From Frigoribacterium endophyticum (lineage in GTDB: Bacteria; Actinomycetota; Actinomycetes; Actinomycetales; Microbacteriaceae), in NCBI RefSeq assembly GCF_011759585.1, contig NZ_JAAOYV010000002.1, positions 741,510-805,509 of the forward strand: a DNA stretch of 64,000 nucleotides, read 5' to 3'. The notes under the pieces were generated by a model that worked only from the letters and a program-made list of their open reading frames with translations, was not told where the DNA came from and ran no database searches. The position numbers were made by a program, and so were the translations under genes. This document shows, piece by piece, positions 14,229-62,631 of this stretch. Numbering within the stretch: position 1 is the first letter of the stretch; every line of letters starts with the position of its first letter.

Positions 14229-14281
14229 CAGCGGCCGCAGCCGCAGCCGCAGTCGCGGCCGCGTCACGCGTCACGCGTCGC
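14229..14281. repeat. Short tandem repeats at the folD stop codon
   Basis: GCCGCA-type hexamers run through 14231-14254 and three copies of GCGTCAC (the last imperfect) through 14261-14281. The folD stop codon (14271-14273) lies inside the second heptamer. Confidence 0.6.
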
Positions 14282-15254
14282 GCTCGGCGGCCTCCACGAC
14301 GTTCTTGAGCAGCATCGCCCGGGTCATCGGGCCGACGCCGCCGGGCACCGGCGACAGGGCACCCGCGACCTGCGCGACCGCCGGGTCGACGTCGCCCCGC
14401 AGCTTGTACTTGCCCGTCTCCTCGACGAACACGCGCGTGATGCCCACGTCGATCACGGTCGCCCCCGGGGCGACCCAGTCGGGCTGCACCAGCCCGGCCA
14501 CGCCGGCCGCCGCGACGACGATGTCGGCGCGGCGCACCTCGGCTGCGACGTCGACCGTGCGCGAGTGCGTGAGGGTGGCCGTCGCCTCGAGGCGGGTGAG
14601 CAGCAGGCCGAGCGGCCGCCCGACGGTGAGGCCCTGGCCGATGATCGTCACGTGACGGCCCGCGATCGGCACGTCGTAGGCGCGCAGCATCTCGACGATG
14701 CCGCGCGGCGTGCACGGCAGGGGCGTGTCGATCGAGCCCTTGCCGCCGGGCACGGCGAGCACGAGCTCGCCGAGGTTGACGGGGTGGAGGCCGTCGGCGT
14801 CCTTCGCCGGGTCCATCAGCTCGAGCATCGCCGTCGGGTCGATGCCGACGGGCAGCGGCAGCTGGATGATGAAGGCGGTGACGGCGGGGTCGACGTTCAT
14901 CGTCTCGATCGCCGCGCGGATCTCCGCCTCGCTGGCCGTGTCGGGCAGGTCGAGGCGGATGGACTCGATGCCGACCTCCGCGCAGTCGCGGTGCTTGCCG
15001 GCCACGTACGACAGCGACCCGGGGTTGGCCCCCACGAGGATCGTGCCGAGCCCGGGCACCACGCCTCGGGCGCGCAGCGCGTCGACCCGGACGCGCAGGT
15101 CGGCCTTGACGGCGGCCGCGAGGGCCGTGCCGTCGATCTTCACCGCGCTGCCCGGCCCCGCGATGAGCGGGCGGTCAGCGGGGTCGACGGGTGCCGTCGC
15201 GGGAGCGCCGGGTGCCGCGTCGACCGCGGCTCCCGGCCCGACGCCGGCGCTCAC
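14271..15254 (-). CDS. folD: Methylenetetrahydrofolate dehydrogenase/cyclohydrolase
   Basis: Bifunctional one-carbon enzyme: oxidises 5,10-methylene-THF with NADP and hydrolyses the product to 10-formyl-THF. Visible blocks are [14 protein letters not shown] with the catalytic Lys, DADGLHPVN, the nucleotide site [15 protein letters not shown] in its actinobacterial form, and [17 protein letters not shown]. The start is uncertain. GTG 15254 overlaps the glyA stop (GTGA) and gives 327 residues with an Ala/Pro-rich extension. GTG 15143 ([12 protein letters not shown]) gives 290 residues, the usual FolD length. Downstream of glyA, so under the same ZTP riboswitch. Confidence 0.92.
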
Positions 15255-16525
15255 GCGTAGAGCGGGAACGCGTCGGTGAGCGCCTTCACGCGCGCCGCGA
15301 GGGCCTCGATGTCGGGCTCGGGCATCAGCGCCAGGGCGATGACGTCGGCGACCTCGGCGAACTCCGCGTCGTCGAAGCCGCGGGTCGCGAGCGCCGGCGT
15401 GCCGATCCGGACGCCCGAGGTGACCATCGGCGGGCGAGGATCCCACGGGACGGAGTTCCGGTTGACGGTGATGCCGACCTGGTGCAGGAGGTCCTCCGCC
15501 TGCTTGCCGTCGACCTCGCTGGCGCGCAGGTCGACGAGCACGAGGTGCACGTCGGTGCCGCCGGTGAGCACGTCGATGCCGGCCGCCTTCGCGTCGGGCG
15601 CGGTGAGGCGGGCGGCGAGGAGCTGGGCGCCGCGGATGGTGCGCTCCTGGCGGTCCTTGAACTCGGGCTCGGCCGCGAGCTTGAAGGCCGTGGCCTTGGC
15701 CGCGATGACGTGCATCAGCGGGCCGCCCTGCTGGCCGGGGAAGACCGCGGAGTTGAGCTTCTTGAAGAGCGGCTCGTGGTTCGACAGGATCACGCCCGAG
15801 CGCGGGCCGGCGAGGGTCTTGTGCACCGTCGACGAGACGACGTGGGCGTGGGGCAGCGGCGACGGGTGCAGGCCCGCGGCGACGAGGCCGGCGAAGTGCG
15901 CCATGTCGACCCAGAGGTACGCGCCGACCTCGTCGGCGATGGCGCGGAAGGCCGCGAAGTCGAGCTGGCGCGGGTAGGCCGACCAGCCGGCGATGATGAC
16001 CTTCGGCTTGTGCTCGAGCGCCTGGCGACGCACGGTCTCCATGTCGATGAGGTACGTCTCGGGGTCGACCTCGTAGGCCACGGCCTTGTACATCTTGCCG
16101 GAGAAGTTGAGCTTCATGCCGTGGGTCAGGTGGCCGCCGTGGGCGAGCTCGAGGCCGAGGATGGTGTCGCCGATGCTGGCGATGGCCGAGAGCACGGCGG
16201 CGTTGGCCTGGGCGCCCGAGTGCGGCTGGACGTTGGCGAAGTCGGCGCCGAACAGCGTCTTGGCCCGCTCGATGGCGAGGTTCTCGGCGACGTCGACGAA
16301 CTCGCAGCCGCCGTAGTAGCGACGCCCCGGGTAGCCCTCGGCGTACTTGTTCGTCAGCACCGAGCCCTGCGACTCGAGCACGGCCCGCGGCACGAAGTTC
16401 TCGGAGGCGATCATCTCGAGGTAGTCACGCTGACGGCCGAGCTCCTGCTCGAGCACCGCGGCGATCTCGGGGTCGACCTCGCTGAGCGGGGCGTTGAAGG
16501 TCGAGGGCGTCTTCTGGGGGGTCAT
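15251..16525 (-). CDS. glyA: Serine hydroxymethyltransferase
   Basis: PLP enzyme converting serine and THF to glycine and 5,10-methylene-THF, the substrate of FolD. 424 residues. Conserved blocks: [16 protein letters not shown] near residue 40, [15 protein letters not shown] near 58, [12 protein letters not shown] near 209, and [14 protein letters not shown] near 234 with the PLP-binding Lys. It leads the glyA-folD operon and is preceded by a ZTP riboswitch in a roughly 145-nt leader, divergent from clpS. Confidence 0.97.
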
Positions 16526-16591
16526 GGCAGGGCTCTCTCTACACGGTCACGGGACGAGGGCGGCACGAGGTGCCGGTTCTTCAGGTGGCGT

Positions 16592-16670
16592 GGTGGCCCA
16601 GGCGTACGGCCACGTACCGTGTGTGCGTCGCTCCCCGATGGTCGACCATCTGAACGCCAGTCGCGACCCG
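16592..16670 (-). promoter_or_regulatory. ZTP (pfl) riboswitch upstream of glyA-folD
   Basis: Read on the reverse strand, the leader begins GGGTCGCGACTGGCG, then ACCATCGGGGAGCGAC and, after a variable loop, CCGTACGCCTGGGCC. These match the two conserved halves of the ZTP-sensing pfl motif, including the GCCTGGGC element. The RNA would begin almost at the predicted start site. A small CGGCAC/GTGCCG hairpin (16561-16575) follows and may belong to the expression platform. ZTP accumulates when 10-formyl-THF is short, which fits control of glyA and folD. Confidence 0.85.
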
Positions 16671-16673
16671 TCG

Positions 16674-16679
16674 AGCATA
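16674..16679 (-). promoter_or_regulatory. -10 box of the glyA-folD promoter
   Basis: TATGCT on the reverse strand lies about 7 nt before the start of the riboswitch fold, placing the transcript start at the first conserved riboswitch bases. Confidence 0.55.
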
Positions 16680-16750
16680 CCTCCGCGGGCAGGGGCGCGG
16701 GAGGCGCGGAGGCGGTCGTGCGGACCGCCGCGGCGTGGCACGCTGGGGGC

Positions 16751-17053
16751 GTGACGCAGACCCTGGACGACACGCGCGTCGGCACCGAGACCGACCCGCG
16801 CCTCCTCGTCGCGCCCGACCGCCCGTGGGTCACGCTGGTCTGGGACGACCCGGTCAACCTGATGTCGTACGTGAGCTACGTCTTCCGCAGCTACTTCGGC
16901 TACTCGGCCCGCGAGTCGGAGCGGCTGATGATGCAGGTGCACACCACCGGCAGGGCCGTCGTCGCCACCGGCCCGCGCGAGGAGATGGAGCGGCACGTCG
17001 AGGCGATGCACGACTTCGGCCTCTGGGCGACCGTCTCGAAGGCCGACGAGTGA
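16751..17053 (+). CDS. clpS: ATP-dependent Clp protease adaptor ClpS
   Basis: Delivers N-degron substrates to the ClpC/ClpP protease. 100 residues from GTG 16751; a CACGCT box ends 6 nt before it. The core matches Clp[21 protein letters not shown] near residues 29-48 with the conserved D-DPVN contacts, and [19 protein letters not shown] near 60-78. The DUF2017 start overlaps its stop (GTGA), as in many actinobacteria. Confidence 0.95.
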
Positions 17054-17514
17054 TCCCTTTCCGTCGCGGCCGGGACGGCATGGAGCTCACGCTGCCGGAC
17101 CACGAACGTGCCCTGCTGGCCGACCTCGTCGCGCAGCTCGTGAGCGTGCTCGAGGGCGGCGACCCCGGCGACCCGGCCGTGGCGCGCCTCCTGCCCTCCG
17201 CGTACCCGGACGACGAGGAGGCGGCGGCCGAGTTCCGCAGGTTCACCGCCGACGACCTGACCGCCCGCAAGGTCGCGAACGCCCGACGGGTGCTCGACGA
17301 CCTCGGCCCGCCGCCGACCTCGCGGCTCGACGAGGCCGCGCAGCAGTCGTGGCTGCGCACGCTGACCGACCTGCGGCTGGTGCTCGGCAGCCGCCTCGGC
17401 GTCACCGACGATGGGCCGGCGCCGACGGACGACCCGCAGCTGCTGGTGATGCACGACGTGTTCGACTGGCTGGGCTACCTGCAGGAGAGCCTCGTCCAGG
17501 CGCTGACGGGCTGA
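17050..17514 (+). CDS. DUF2017 family protein
   Basis: 154 residues from a GTG overlapping the clpS stop. The sequence fits the actinobacterial DUF2017 family, regularly found next to clpS: an opening [10 protein letters not shown], a helical middle with [19 protein letters not shown], and an ending [19 protein letters not shown]. No catalytic motif, signal or membrane span. The genomic link suggests a role in Clp-dependent proteolysis, but no function is established. Confidence 0.88.
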
Positions 17515-60800: not shown

Positions 60801-61092
60801 CGACGCCGTCGGCCCACAGGGTCGGGGCGGCGCTGCGCTGCTCGACGGGGGCGTCGAGCGTCTTCGTGACGACGTACCCGCCGGCGGCGGGCGTGACCGA
60901 CCAGTCCGAGCCCTGGGCGAGGGTCGTGACCGTGGGAGGCGCGGCGGAGGCCGGGGCCCCGAACGCGAGCGTGCCGGCGGCGACGCAGAGGGTGGTGGCG
61001 ACGGCGACGCGTCGCCAGAGGCGGTCGAGCGGACGCGACGGGGCGCGACCGACGGAGGGCCTGGGGGCAGGCCGAGGGGCAGACGAGGGCAC
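57823..61092 (-). CDS. Large cell-wall-anchored alpha/beta hydrolase with Calx-beta-like and LAYTG signal
   Basis: From GTG 61092 (AGGAG 5 nt upstream) it has 1089 residues; ATG 61197 would add 35. The signal peptide ends GAPASA near 50. The alpha/beta hydrolase core (about 185-470) has VVMFLHGRH (oxyanion) near 223, nucleophile elbow GLMGHSRGGDGA (Ser338) and a candidate His in VMGTNHNFYNT. Beta-rich domains follow, one resembling Calx-beta (VPDVAIEEGDGLGSVDVPVL then LTFAPGETCKVVTVPTTGDD), then an IPT-like domain, a Pro/Gly/Ala stalk, LAYTG at 1037, a hydrophobic span and RRR. LAxTG is the class E sortase motif, so the enzyme is probably covalently attached to the wall. Substrate unknown. 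The 20 residues after RRR are unusually long. Confidence 0.83.
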   Translation of the reverse strand: MPSSAPRPAPRPSVGRAPSRPLDRLWRRVAVATTLCVAAGTLAFGAPASAAPPTVTTLAQGSDWSVTPAAGGYVVTKTLDAPVEQRSAAPTLWADGVELGVATESLDGLTLTVVTTLPAAATASSVQAGWTGEGDPARASGGQAQRRQAAPAPAPTTDAVPDDGVADAQRLLAADPATTGAYGTERLDYDLGDEAEEIRGFGRLGEMRASVTMPVGATGERPVVMFLHGRHTSCSGGTRNPLAWPCGPDQVDVESYRGYQDSADVLASQGYAVVSISANAINALDGTLSDDNGAVARAQLILDHLALLEQANSGTAVGLSPALAGRLDLDHVGLMGHSRGGDGAVRAALLNAELPEPFGIEAVLPLAPTDFGRMTLPDVPMAVVLPYCDGDVSNLQGQHFFDDSRLAYGDDVLRSSVLVMGTNHNFYNTTWTPSKYAYSASDDWAAQDRQQVDPDCGYGTAPARLTDDEQYDVGTAYLTGFFRLTMGGEQQFLPMFDGSDEVPASAGRADVRVTASQPASTRLDVQTFAVPDPAVRVAGAGTYAWCASLAGRPVPGTQPYCATSLLSAQVPDFTPANFAPSVPTTPSLRFTWTEPASATAAPAELRVPMPGGPTDVSGYERLSVRVSPDETVAARTDLVVTLVDGKGGSASLPASEFGDALQVLPGTKAPLRKLLLQQLEIPVASFTGVDLADVREVRFTAPRVAGGALLSDLSFLAAPSVGTAAISTRPFVSVPDVAIEEGDGLGSVDVPVLLSRASDAPTTAWFSAIGTPSGKVDVAMRPLTFAPGETCKVVTVPTTGDDLSSPTATTRFRATISNTQEGSTIGDSFGWVTVREDDAVVTVPTATVPATVLPMAPAVGVQGDACAEAQAEAGTLTVSDDVVQQGQSLTISGSGFRVGEAVAVTIAPEAATAPGAPTVAVVDEGEPLVETVIADSAGSFALVSTIAADAPDGVRTVSALGAGSGLTATASYRVGAEAVVPTPGDPAPVDPGTPGAPAPGAPGAGAGAGVAVPVVPAASGATPITARPGSGAGASDLAYTGPGVATGVLAMLALALLGLGSAAVVARRRGLEPLTATQDAADEAVRDPR

Positions 61093-61313
61093 GGGTCTCC
61101 TGGGTGAGGGGGCGATGACGGACGGTCGTCCGCCCCCGGGCTCCGTCGGCGGCGTGCTCTCCGACGCCCCGGCTCTGGGCGGATCCAGGGGAACCATAGA
61201 GCCGTTCCACAGGCCCCCACGTCGTTTCGTATACGTTCTTCACACAGCCGAAACGGGGCCGTAACACCGGGTGCCAGAAGGCGAACGGAGCCCCGCCCAC
61301 GAGGGAGGGGCCC

Positions 61314-61319
61314 TAGAGT
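61314..61319 (+). promoter_or_regulatory. -10 box (TAGAGT) near the DUF1304 start
   Basis: Ends 7 nt before the ATG at 61327. Confidence 0.55.
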
Positions 61320-61326
61320 CGGCCCC

Positions 61327-61725
61327 ATGCTCATCGCCCTGATCGCCGGCGCCCTCGCCGCGCTGCTGCACGTCTACATCTTCGTCATGGAGTCCGTGCT
61401 GTGGACGACCCCGCGGGTCCGGGCCACGTTCGGCATCTCGAGCGACGCCCAGGCCGAGCACACGAAGCCGCTCGCCTACAACCAGGGCTTCTACAACCTC
61501 TTCCTCGCGATCGTCACCGTGGTCGGCGTCGTGCTGATCGCGTCCGACGACTCGGCGGGCGCCTCCCCCGCGGGCGTGGCCCTGCTCGTCGCGGGCACCG
61601 GCTCGATGCTCGCCGCCGCCCTCGTGCTCGTGCTGAGCGACCGCACGAAGGTGCGCGCGGCGACGCTGCAGGGCGTGTTCCCGCTGGTCTCGCTCGTGGC
61701 GCTGCTCATCGCCACGGTCGCGTAG
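61327..61725 (+). CDS. DUF1304 family membrane protein
   Basis: 132 residues with four membrane spans. The DUF1304 motif HVYIFVMESVLWTTPRVRAT near residues 15-34 and NQGFYNLFLAIVTVVG near 57-72 are intact. Small bacterial integral membrane protein of unknown function. Its likely leaderless promoter is independent of the divergent hydrolase gene. Confidence 0.9.
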   Translation: MLIALIAGALAALLHVYIFVMESVLWTTPRVRATFGISSDAQAEHTKPLAYNQGFYNLFLAIVTVVGVVLIASDDSAGASPAGVALLVAGTGSMLAAALVLVLSDRTKVRAATLQGVFPLVSLVALLIATVA

Positions 61726-61743
61726 CACGCCCGCCGCCCGCAC

Positions 61744-61749
61744 TACCCT
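61744..61749 (+). promoter_or_regulatory. -10 box (TACCCT), leaderless start of purU
   Basis: Ends exactly 6 nt before the GTG at 61756. Confidence 0.65.
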
Positions 61750-61755
61750 GGGCTG

Positions 61756-62631
61756 GTGACCGACCCGACCAGCGACTCCCCCACCACCACGCACTGGACC
61801 TTGACGCTGGTCTGCGAAGACCAGCCCGGCATCGTGCACGCCGTCAGCGGGGCCGTGGTGGAGGCGGGGGGCAACATCACGGAGTCGGCCCAGTTCTCGA
61901 GCCACGACACCGGCACCTTCTTCATGCGCCTGCAGGTCGAGGCCCCCGGCGAGCGCGCCGCCTTCGAGGCGCAGCTCGCCCCGGTCGTCGAGCGCTACGG
62001 CATGCAGCACGCCCTCGACGTGGTCGGGCGCCCGACGCGCACCCTGGTGCTCGCGAGCAAGGCCGCGCACTGCGTCAACGACCTGCTCTTCCGGCAGCGC
62101 GCCGGGCAGCTGCCGATCGAGGTGCCGCTCATCCTCGCCAACCACGACGACCTGTCGGGCCTCGCCGAGTTCTACGGCAAGCGCTTCGAGCACCACCCGG
62201 TCACCGACGCGGAGTCGAAGGCCGCCTTCGAGGCCCGTGTGCTGCAGGTCGTCGACCGCTACGACATCGAGCTCGTCGTGCTCGCCCGCTACATGCAGAT
62301 CCTCAGCCCCGAGCTCTGCGCGGCGCTCGAGGGGCGGGCGATCAACATCCACCACTCGTTCCTGCCCGGGTTCAAGGGCGCGAACCCGTACCGCCAGGCC
62401 CACGCCCGCGGCGTCAAGCTGATCGGCGCGACGGCCCACTTCGTCACGAGCGACCTCGACGAGGGCCCGATCATCGAGCAGAACGTCGTGCGCGTCGACC
62501 ACACCCGCAGCGCCCCCGAGCTGATGGCGATCGGCCAGGACGAGGAGAGCCGCACGCTCACCCAGGCGGTGCGCTGGTTCGCGGAGGACCGCGTGCTGCT
62601 CGACGGGGCCCGCACGATCGTCTTCCGCTAG
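61756..62631 (+). CDS. purU: Formyltetrahydrofolate deformylase
   Basis: Hydrolyses 10-formyl-THF to formate and THF, balancing one-carbon pools and feeding formate to PurT where present. 291 residues from GTG. An N-terminal ACT domain (about 14-85: LTLVCEDQPGIVHAVSGAVV) binds glycine or methionine regulators. The C-terminal formyltransferase fold has ILANHDDLSG, INIHHSFLPGFKGANPYRQA with the catalytic His, and TSDLDEGPIIEQ with the catalytic Asp. Functionally linked to folD and glyA at 14-16 kb. Confidence 0.95.
   Translation: MTDPTSDSPTTTHWTLTLVCEDQPGIVHAVSGAVVEAGGNITESAQFSSHDTGTFFMRLQVEAPGERAAFEAQLAPVVERYGMQHALDVVGRPTRTLVLASKAAHCVNDLLFRQRAGQLPIEVPLILANHDDLSGLAEFYGKRFEHHPVTDAESKAAFEARVLQVVDRYDIELVVLARYMQILSPELCAALEGRAINIHHSFLPGFKGANPYRQAHARGVKLIGATAHFVTSDLDEGPIIEQNVVRVDHTRSAPELMAIGQDEESRTLTQAVRWFAEDRVLLDGARTIVFR

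Follow-up and report, generated by a model that had tools for sequence, protein, structure and literature searches.

A ZMP/ZTP riboswitch upstream of glyA-folD and the -10 box at its 5' edge in Microbacteriaceae

The glyA-folD leader in the window (the whole 64-kb stretch of DNA analysed here) holds a real ZMP/ZTP riboswitch, and from sequence comparison this riboswitch very probably controls glyA-folD in an RNA that starts at the +1 of the aptamer, a judgement that excludes the translation step. ZTP switches activate one-carbon genes under 10-formyl-THF shortage. At this locus, an extended-type -10 promoter without a -35 element would let the RNA begin at, or 1–2 bases from, the first P1 base pair; a start at the first pair would leave the aptamer without a 5' overhang and with a P1 of just 5 bp. 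When 10-formyl-THF runs short, ZMP/ZTP would accumulate and bind the aptamer, in which P1-P2 would be joined to P3 via the GGCG/CGCC pseudoknot. The ligand-bound aptamer would then raise glyA-folD expression and restore one-carbon units, and glyA would be controlled at translation, perhaps through a helix between the P1-P3 linker and the bases ahead of the ribosome-binding site. We infer both ZMP/ZTP as the ligand and the turning ON of expression from the riboswitch class; in the available text on a Pectobacterium ZTP reporter, expression is likewise activated by ligand binding (PMC10117056).

Identity, helices and genes of the riboswitch

An Infernal search (cmscan) of the whole window matched the Rfam family RF01750 (ZMP-ZTP) on the minus strand over model positions 1-86 of 86, with 53.9 bits where the gathering score is 39 (the E-value, for a search space of 64 kb and 4227 families, is 5.7e-6). 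The match bears out the pfl/ZTP motif that the earlier note had read here, and the conserved halves which that note named are present in the sequence. A tRNA is the other of the two above-threshold Rfam matches in the window, and an Rfam search of the genome (3.32 Mb, 6 contigs) found the copy upstream of glyA as its sole ZTP riboswitch. The coordinates of the features are collected in Table 1.

Table 1. Features of the glyA-folD locus, in positions of the window
Feature	Position	Strand	Basis
-10 hexamer TATGCT (TANNNT)	16674..16679	-	G at -14 of extended -10, no -35
Predicted transcription start, G, first paired P1 base	16667	-	seven bases after hexamer; inferred
ZMP/ZTP aptamer, RF01750	16589..16674	-	cmscan 53.9 bits
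P1 helix, 5 bp: 16667-16663 (GUCGC) with 16631-16627 (GCGAC)	16627..16667	-	covariance model and family pairing
P2 helix GAUGG/CCAUC: 16650-16646 with 16641-16637	16637..16650	-	covariance model and family alignment
P3 helix GUGGCC/GGCCAC: 16613-16608 with 16598-16593	16593..16613	-	outer pairs covary in family
Pseudoknot GGCG (16658-16655) with CGCC (16604-16601)	16601..16658	-	four pairs, each formed in 59 or 60 of 60 aptamers
Possible switch helix: P1-P3 linker ACACGGU (16622-16616) with ACCGUGU (16547-16541), before ribosome-binding region	16541..16622	-	weak
Weak purine-rich ribosome-binding region AGAGAGAG	16533..16540	-	3 of 5 to AGGAG
glyA, serine hydroxymethyltransferase	15251..16525	-	NCBIfam NF000586, 600 bits, cut-off 335
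folD, methylene-THF dehydrogenase/cyclohydrolase	14271..15149	-	NCBIfam NF010789, 412 bits, cut-off 401

The helices are conserved as structure in the family. In an alignment (A1) of 60 of the 109 family loci, less than 80% alike and at most 100 bases long (L009 shortened at its 3' end), 97.4% of the cells of 22 pairs are paired, both-side changes occur at 9 pairs, and for P1, P2 and P3 none of 500 shuffles equals any of five measures. An earlier count of both-side changes at 13 of 26 pairs had included four pairs from the outer part of P1 in the Rfam model, which were added as a test, are 44.0% paired, and are omitted from the 22-pair recount. The inner P1 with its adjoining pairs is 99.0% paired, P2 99.0%, and P3 93.3% with many compensatory changes among its outer pairs, and the J1/2 GGCG - L3 CGCC pseudoknot is 98.8% paired but invariant. 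In the phylum, four loci (L112, L115, L117 and L125) carry ACTGACG together with CGTCTGGG, a compensatory GACG/CGUC change in this normally invariant pseudoknot; two of them, the boxless L115 and L117, seem not to differ anywhere in the displayed stretch. We regard a chance resemblance, or a decayed and non-functional aptamer, as highly improbable: the unconstrained fold of the window's leader did not recover the aptamer and was no better than shuffles (z 1.02), which would fit such a reading, but against it stand the 53.9 bits, an Rfam consensus whose capital-letter core is mostly retained and the covariation among relatives.

Downstream lie purine/one-carbon genes as expected for RF01750, namely glyA and then folD, and the earlier note's placing of both behind the riboswitch holds at scores above the NCBIfam cut-offs; the start codon of folD and its co-transcription with glyA are presumed. 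The accessible text of Weinberg 2010 (PMC2864571) names glyA and folD among the pfl-motif genes, which makes this riboswitch nothing out of the ordinary within a class already described; with that class it shares the core sequence, the P1-P2-P3 layout, the pseudoknot and the downstream glyA/folD. On the other side, clpS (16751..17053, plus strand) is divergent from glyA. Another gene brought up by the earlier note, purU (61756..62631, plus strand), does lie ~45 kb from the riboswitch and without a ZTP leader: cmscan of the whole window gave no Rfam family at threshold near it, and a permissive scan of 61000-62000 gave a single sub-threshold match, RF00523 (19.4 vs 39 bits), within purU. There, TACCCT plus seven bases (61744..61756, plus strand) puts the predicted start on the G that opens the GTG start codon, at 61756, and from its sequence purU looks leaderless.

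The ZTP riboswitch is common in the Microbacteriaceae, occurring in 176 of 199 genomes at E 0.001 (174 above the cut-off), and was found in 132/198 genomes of an order sample, 125/296 of a class sample and 34/296 of a phylum sample, these samples overlapping. We took the family as Microbacteriaceae: one of its loci (L024) is identical over 1500 bases to that of Terrimesophilobacter mesophilus (L215). By tblastn, a glyA match lies downstream in 106 of 111 family loci; the five others are L071 and L012, L044, L063 and L090, and in the last four the first codons after the riboswitch read alike and may be those of purH, which they resemble. One locus (L157) belongs to a record that bears the Firmicutes name Planococcus sp. 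APC 4015, and yet its glyA locus is nearest to that of a Microbacteriaceae genome (L105, 85% over 1231 bases); the genome is probably mislabelled or mixed. When 32 of the genomes behind the pattern-found loci were searched again, 20 were above the Rfam cut-off (6/7 Actinomycetota and 14/25 others), so that part of the pattern matches are chance.

The -10 box and the 5' edge of the aptamer

The TATGCT box of the earlier note is present, and no other TANNNT occurs in a 210-base interval that opens 60 bases before the aptamer core GACTGGCG and closes 150 bases after it; no sigma-70 site with two hexamers turned up when 16000-17200 was scanned. TANNNT is given as the -10 motif from mapped starts in the available text on Streptomyces lividans and S. 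avermitilis (PMC8079986, PMC8780764). In the family, its last base lies between model positions -2 and 4 in 111/111 loci and at 0 or 1 in 105 of them, compared with a mean of 10/111 and a maximum of 19 in shuffled upstream sequence over a 15-position interval; here and outside the family, such chance levels come from single-base shuffles, and the related loci are not independent. The G of the extended -10 is found in 83/107 family loci, the -35 place carries at most 0.06 bits (107 loci), and the seventh base after the box is G in 85/107 and A in 10/107 (purine 95/107). The columns further upstream are near background, so the box needs more than shared descent as its explanation.

Pairing in P1 provides a test of the start that is independent of the box, since bases upstream of the predicted start should not pair if they are untranscribed. 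Position 8 of the model is the predicted +1 for a box whose last base is at position 1, as in the window. Across the 99 of 111 family loci tested (12 were missed by the regex for the P1 3' strand), pairing of each locus with its own 3' strand was 0.96, 1.00, 0.98, 0.97 and 0.93 from position 12 to 8, and fell to 0.49, 0.41, 0.27 and 0.27 from 7 to 4; with the strands of other loci as a control, the values were 0.96, 0.99, 0.97, 0.90 and 0.85, and then 0.40, 0.40, 0.24 and 0.28. With next to no variation at positions 10-12, the own-over-other excess lies at 8 and 9, and the test rests on these two and on the outward drop, with an excess of similar size at position 7 (0.49 vs 0.40) and values close to chance farther out. 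Both-side changes number 6 at position 8 and 9 at position 9 among 60 sequences. The later locus table holds 109 family loci, as L078 was omitted by hand and L100 was missed.

In addition, P1 varies in length with the place of the box. A box that ends at 2 goes with a P1 of 3 bp (n=11), and one that ends at 1 with a P1 of 5 bp (n=124); at -1 (n=19) or -3 (n=6), P1 is about 7 bp and pairing reaches positions 7 and 6; at -2 (n=21) the extra pairing is weak and the pattern less clear. This comparison lost 5 of 131 newly fetched loci together with L100, L125, L127, L132 and L137, and L116, L130, L133, L134 and L078 were omitted by hand.

Outside the family, TANNNT ends between -8 and 4 in 141 of 145 phylum loci (shuffles: mean 7.8, max 15). 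The P1 start follows the predicted +1 with a Spearman coefficient of 0.42 (n=137), and of 0.63 among named Actinomycetota (n=47), although the loci are related and p-values would overstate the evidence. It falls within 2 bases of the predicted +1 in 108/137 loci (permuted mean 84.5, max 97) and in 39/47 of the named ones (permuted mean 30.3, max 38), while the overhang is 5-8 bases in 13/137 and -3 or -4 in 4/137. The 137 omit 8 of the 145 loci: four without a box (L115, L117, L129, L390), one with two boxes (L114) and three with a P1 below 2 bp; seven wrong aptamer cores were re-picked by best P1 pairing. The 47 are the boxed loci among the 52 of 80 named loci taken as Actinomycetota, L157 included, with L142, L174, L181, L189 (upstream cut off) and L195 left out, and the best-pairing register was taken for their P1, which inflates the inner pairs. 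No TANNNT was found in the named loci L142 and L181, although both resemble real aptamers. Five loci from Nocardioides, Intrasporangium, Rhodococcoides and Actinoplanes (L161, L177, L190, L204, L214) have a 3-bp P1, CAC/GTG, and a correspondingly later box; the two of these pattern matches whose genomes were re-checked by Rfam (L161 and L190) are both above the cut-off.

The earlier note had the transcript start at the aptamer itself, which is supported comparatively by the fixed box and by P1 pairing that ends at the predicted start; its motif start (16669) and end coordinate (16670) agree with the predicted +1 within 2-3 bases. It is improbable, in our estimate, that the main promoter is something other than the -10-like box and that the glyA transcript begins farther upstream, with a P1 that is short for structural reasons. 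The 225 bases between the divergent glyA and clpS starts would leave room for a second promoter, the start in the window is itself a prediction, and many loci beyond the family have a pyrimidine at the predicted +1 (60/140, with a purine in 80/140, vs the 95/107 purines of the family). Such an upstream start is countered by a TANNNT that is near-fixed in the family while most neighbouring columns carry little information, by the extended -10 G and the +1 purine, and by P1 pairing that moves with the box, if less clearly at -2.

Closeness to the promoter as a speciality of ZTP riboswitches was considered, and is rejected by TPP and FMN controls from the same family (29/30 loci each, from L392-L451; L401 and L439 were too short). 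The box ends at most 9 bases from the model start in 28/29 TPP loci, and 10-15 bases before it in 24/29 FMN loci. These riboswitches of Microbacteriaceae thus sit close behind a box as the ZTP one does, with different ligands and genes, and the likeness concerns box distance alone, since the comparison of P1 with the start covers ZTP only. If the compact leader pointed out in the earlier note was meant as unusual, that part does not stand: it is common for ZTP across the phylum sample, and TPP boxes are placed similarly. These bacteria seem generally to keep the 5' overhang short, and there may be a general rule for the position of aptamers relative to TANNNT.

Expression platform

On one hand, the family leaders point to translation as the step that is controlled. 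They extend 24-111 bases beyond the aptamer (median 51), and a full AGGAG is present in 85/103, an upper figure because the start codon was picked for the best ribosome-site score; leader length and AGGAG both point this way, though the window's own site is weak. An intrinsic terminator platform, with a U-run hairpin overlapping P3, is rejected for the family: intrinsic-terminator-like sites occur in just 3 of 103 leaders, and the minus strand of 16000-17200 yielded none. We lean towards control of glyA at translation rather than by a terminator, and rank it ahead of termination.

On the other hand, the same riboswitch could have a transcriptional platform, in which ligand-free RNA would be ended by Rho or by a terminator that has no U-run and ZTP would bring readthrough into glyA. 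We consider this the less probable course, though a serious one. According to the available text of each source, the Fusobacterium ZTP switch works by a terminator (PMC7484762), predicted terminators overlap many pfl RNAs (Weinberg 2010, PMC2864571), and TaRTLEt reports termination at some ZMP-ZTP loci (PMC12121620). The pfl ZTP riboswitches of Fusobacterium ulcerans and Clostridium beijerinckii, of the same aptamer class as that of the window, have been studied as transcriptional (PMC7484762 and PMC10085676, as far as their accessible text goes), whereas no terminator was found at the glyA-folD locus. A hairpin, GGCAC-CUC-GUGCC, at 16574-16562 would suit a transcriptional platform, as would the energy of opening the ribosome site, which was equal with and without the aptamer fold (p=0.51, simple folding model, 97 loci). 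The scarcity of terminator-like sites in the family, and their absence on the minus strand of 16000-17200, speak against it.

For control at translation, a helix between the P1-P3 linker and the stretch before the ribosome site is suggestive only. The window's own pair reaches p=0.07. Across 97 of 103 family loci, the linker of each locus scored a mean of 11.5 with its own stretch, against 10.1 for shuffles (sd 0.39, z 3.6) and 10.7 for other loci (sd 0.40, z 2.1); the test omits five loci with a ribosome-site score of 3 (L001, which is the window locus, L006, L033, L034 and L043) and one with a short stretch (L064), and as L033 and L034 are close relatives of the window locus, the signal excludes all three. 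The signal is not clean, since both controls exceed their own shuffles: the 22 bases directly after the aptamer gave 10.97 vs 9.42 (sd 0.75, n=30), and a coding stretch 9.60 vs 9.06 (sd 0.38, n=97). A wider version of the helix gave 11.7% of 103 loci at p<=0.05.

Relation to known systems and meaning

The switch is expected biology and of low novelty, while the coupling of promoter and aptamer is of moderate novelty. P1 is 5 bp here vs 10 in the Rfam RF01750 model, and the locus differs from the class in that the box ends at model position 1 and in that an intrinsic terminator was not found. Among open-licence papers we found no published description of a ZTP aptamer layout that abuts the promoter. 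A joint reading for the Actinomycetota is tentative and, to us, rather doubtful as a whole: the ZTP aptamer would have its 5' edge set by the promoter, P1 would coevolve with the -10 box, the initiating nucleotide would be the outermost P1 base, and the length of P1 (3 to about 8 bp) would be set by where RNA polymerase starts, so that the choice of start could tune the switch; and, without a terminator, a helix between the P1-P3 linker and the bases ahead of the ribosome site would be a new kind of ZTP expression platform.

The family supplies ZTP switches in large number that have no visible terminator. In these bacteria, the 5' boundaries of aptamers are largely readable from the -10 box, which gives start points for constructs, and the prediction follows that extra 5' bases or a moved start would alter P1.
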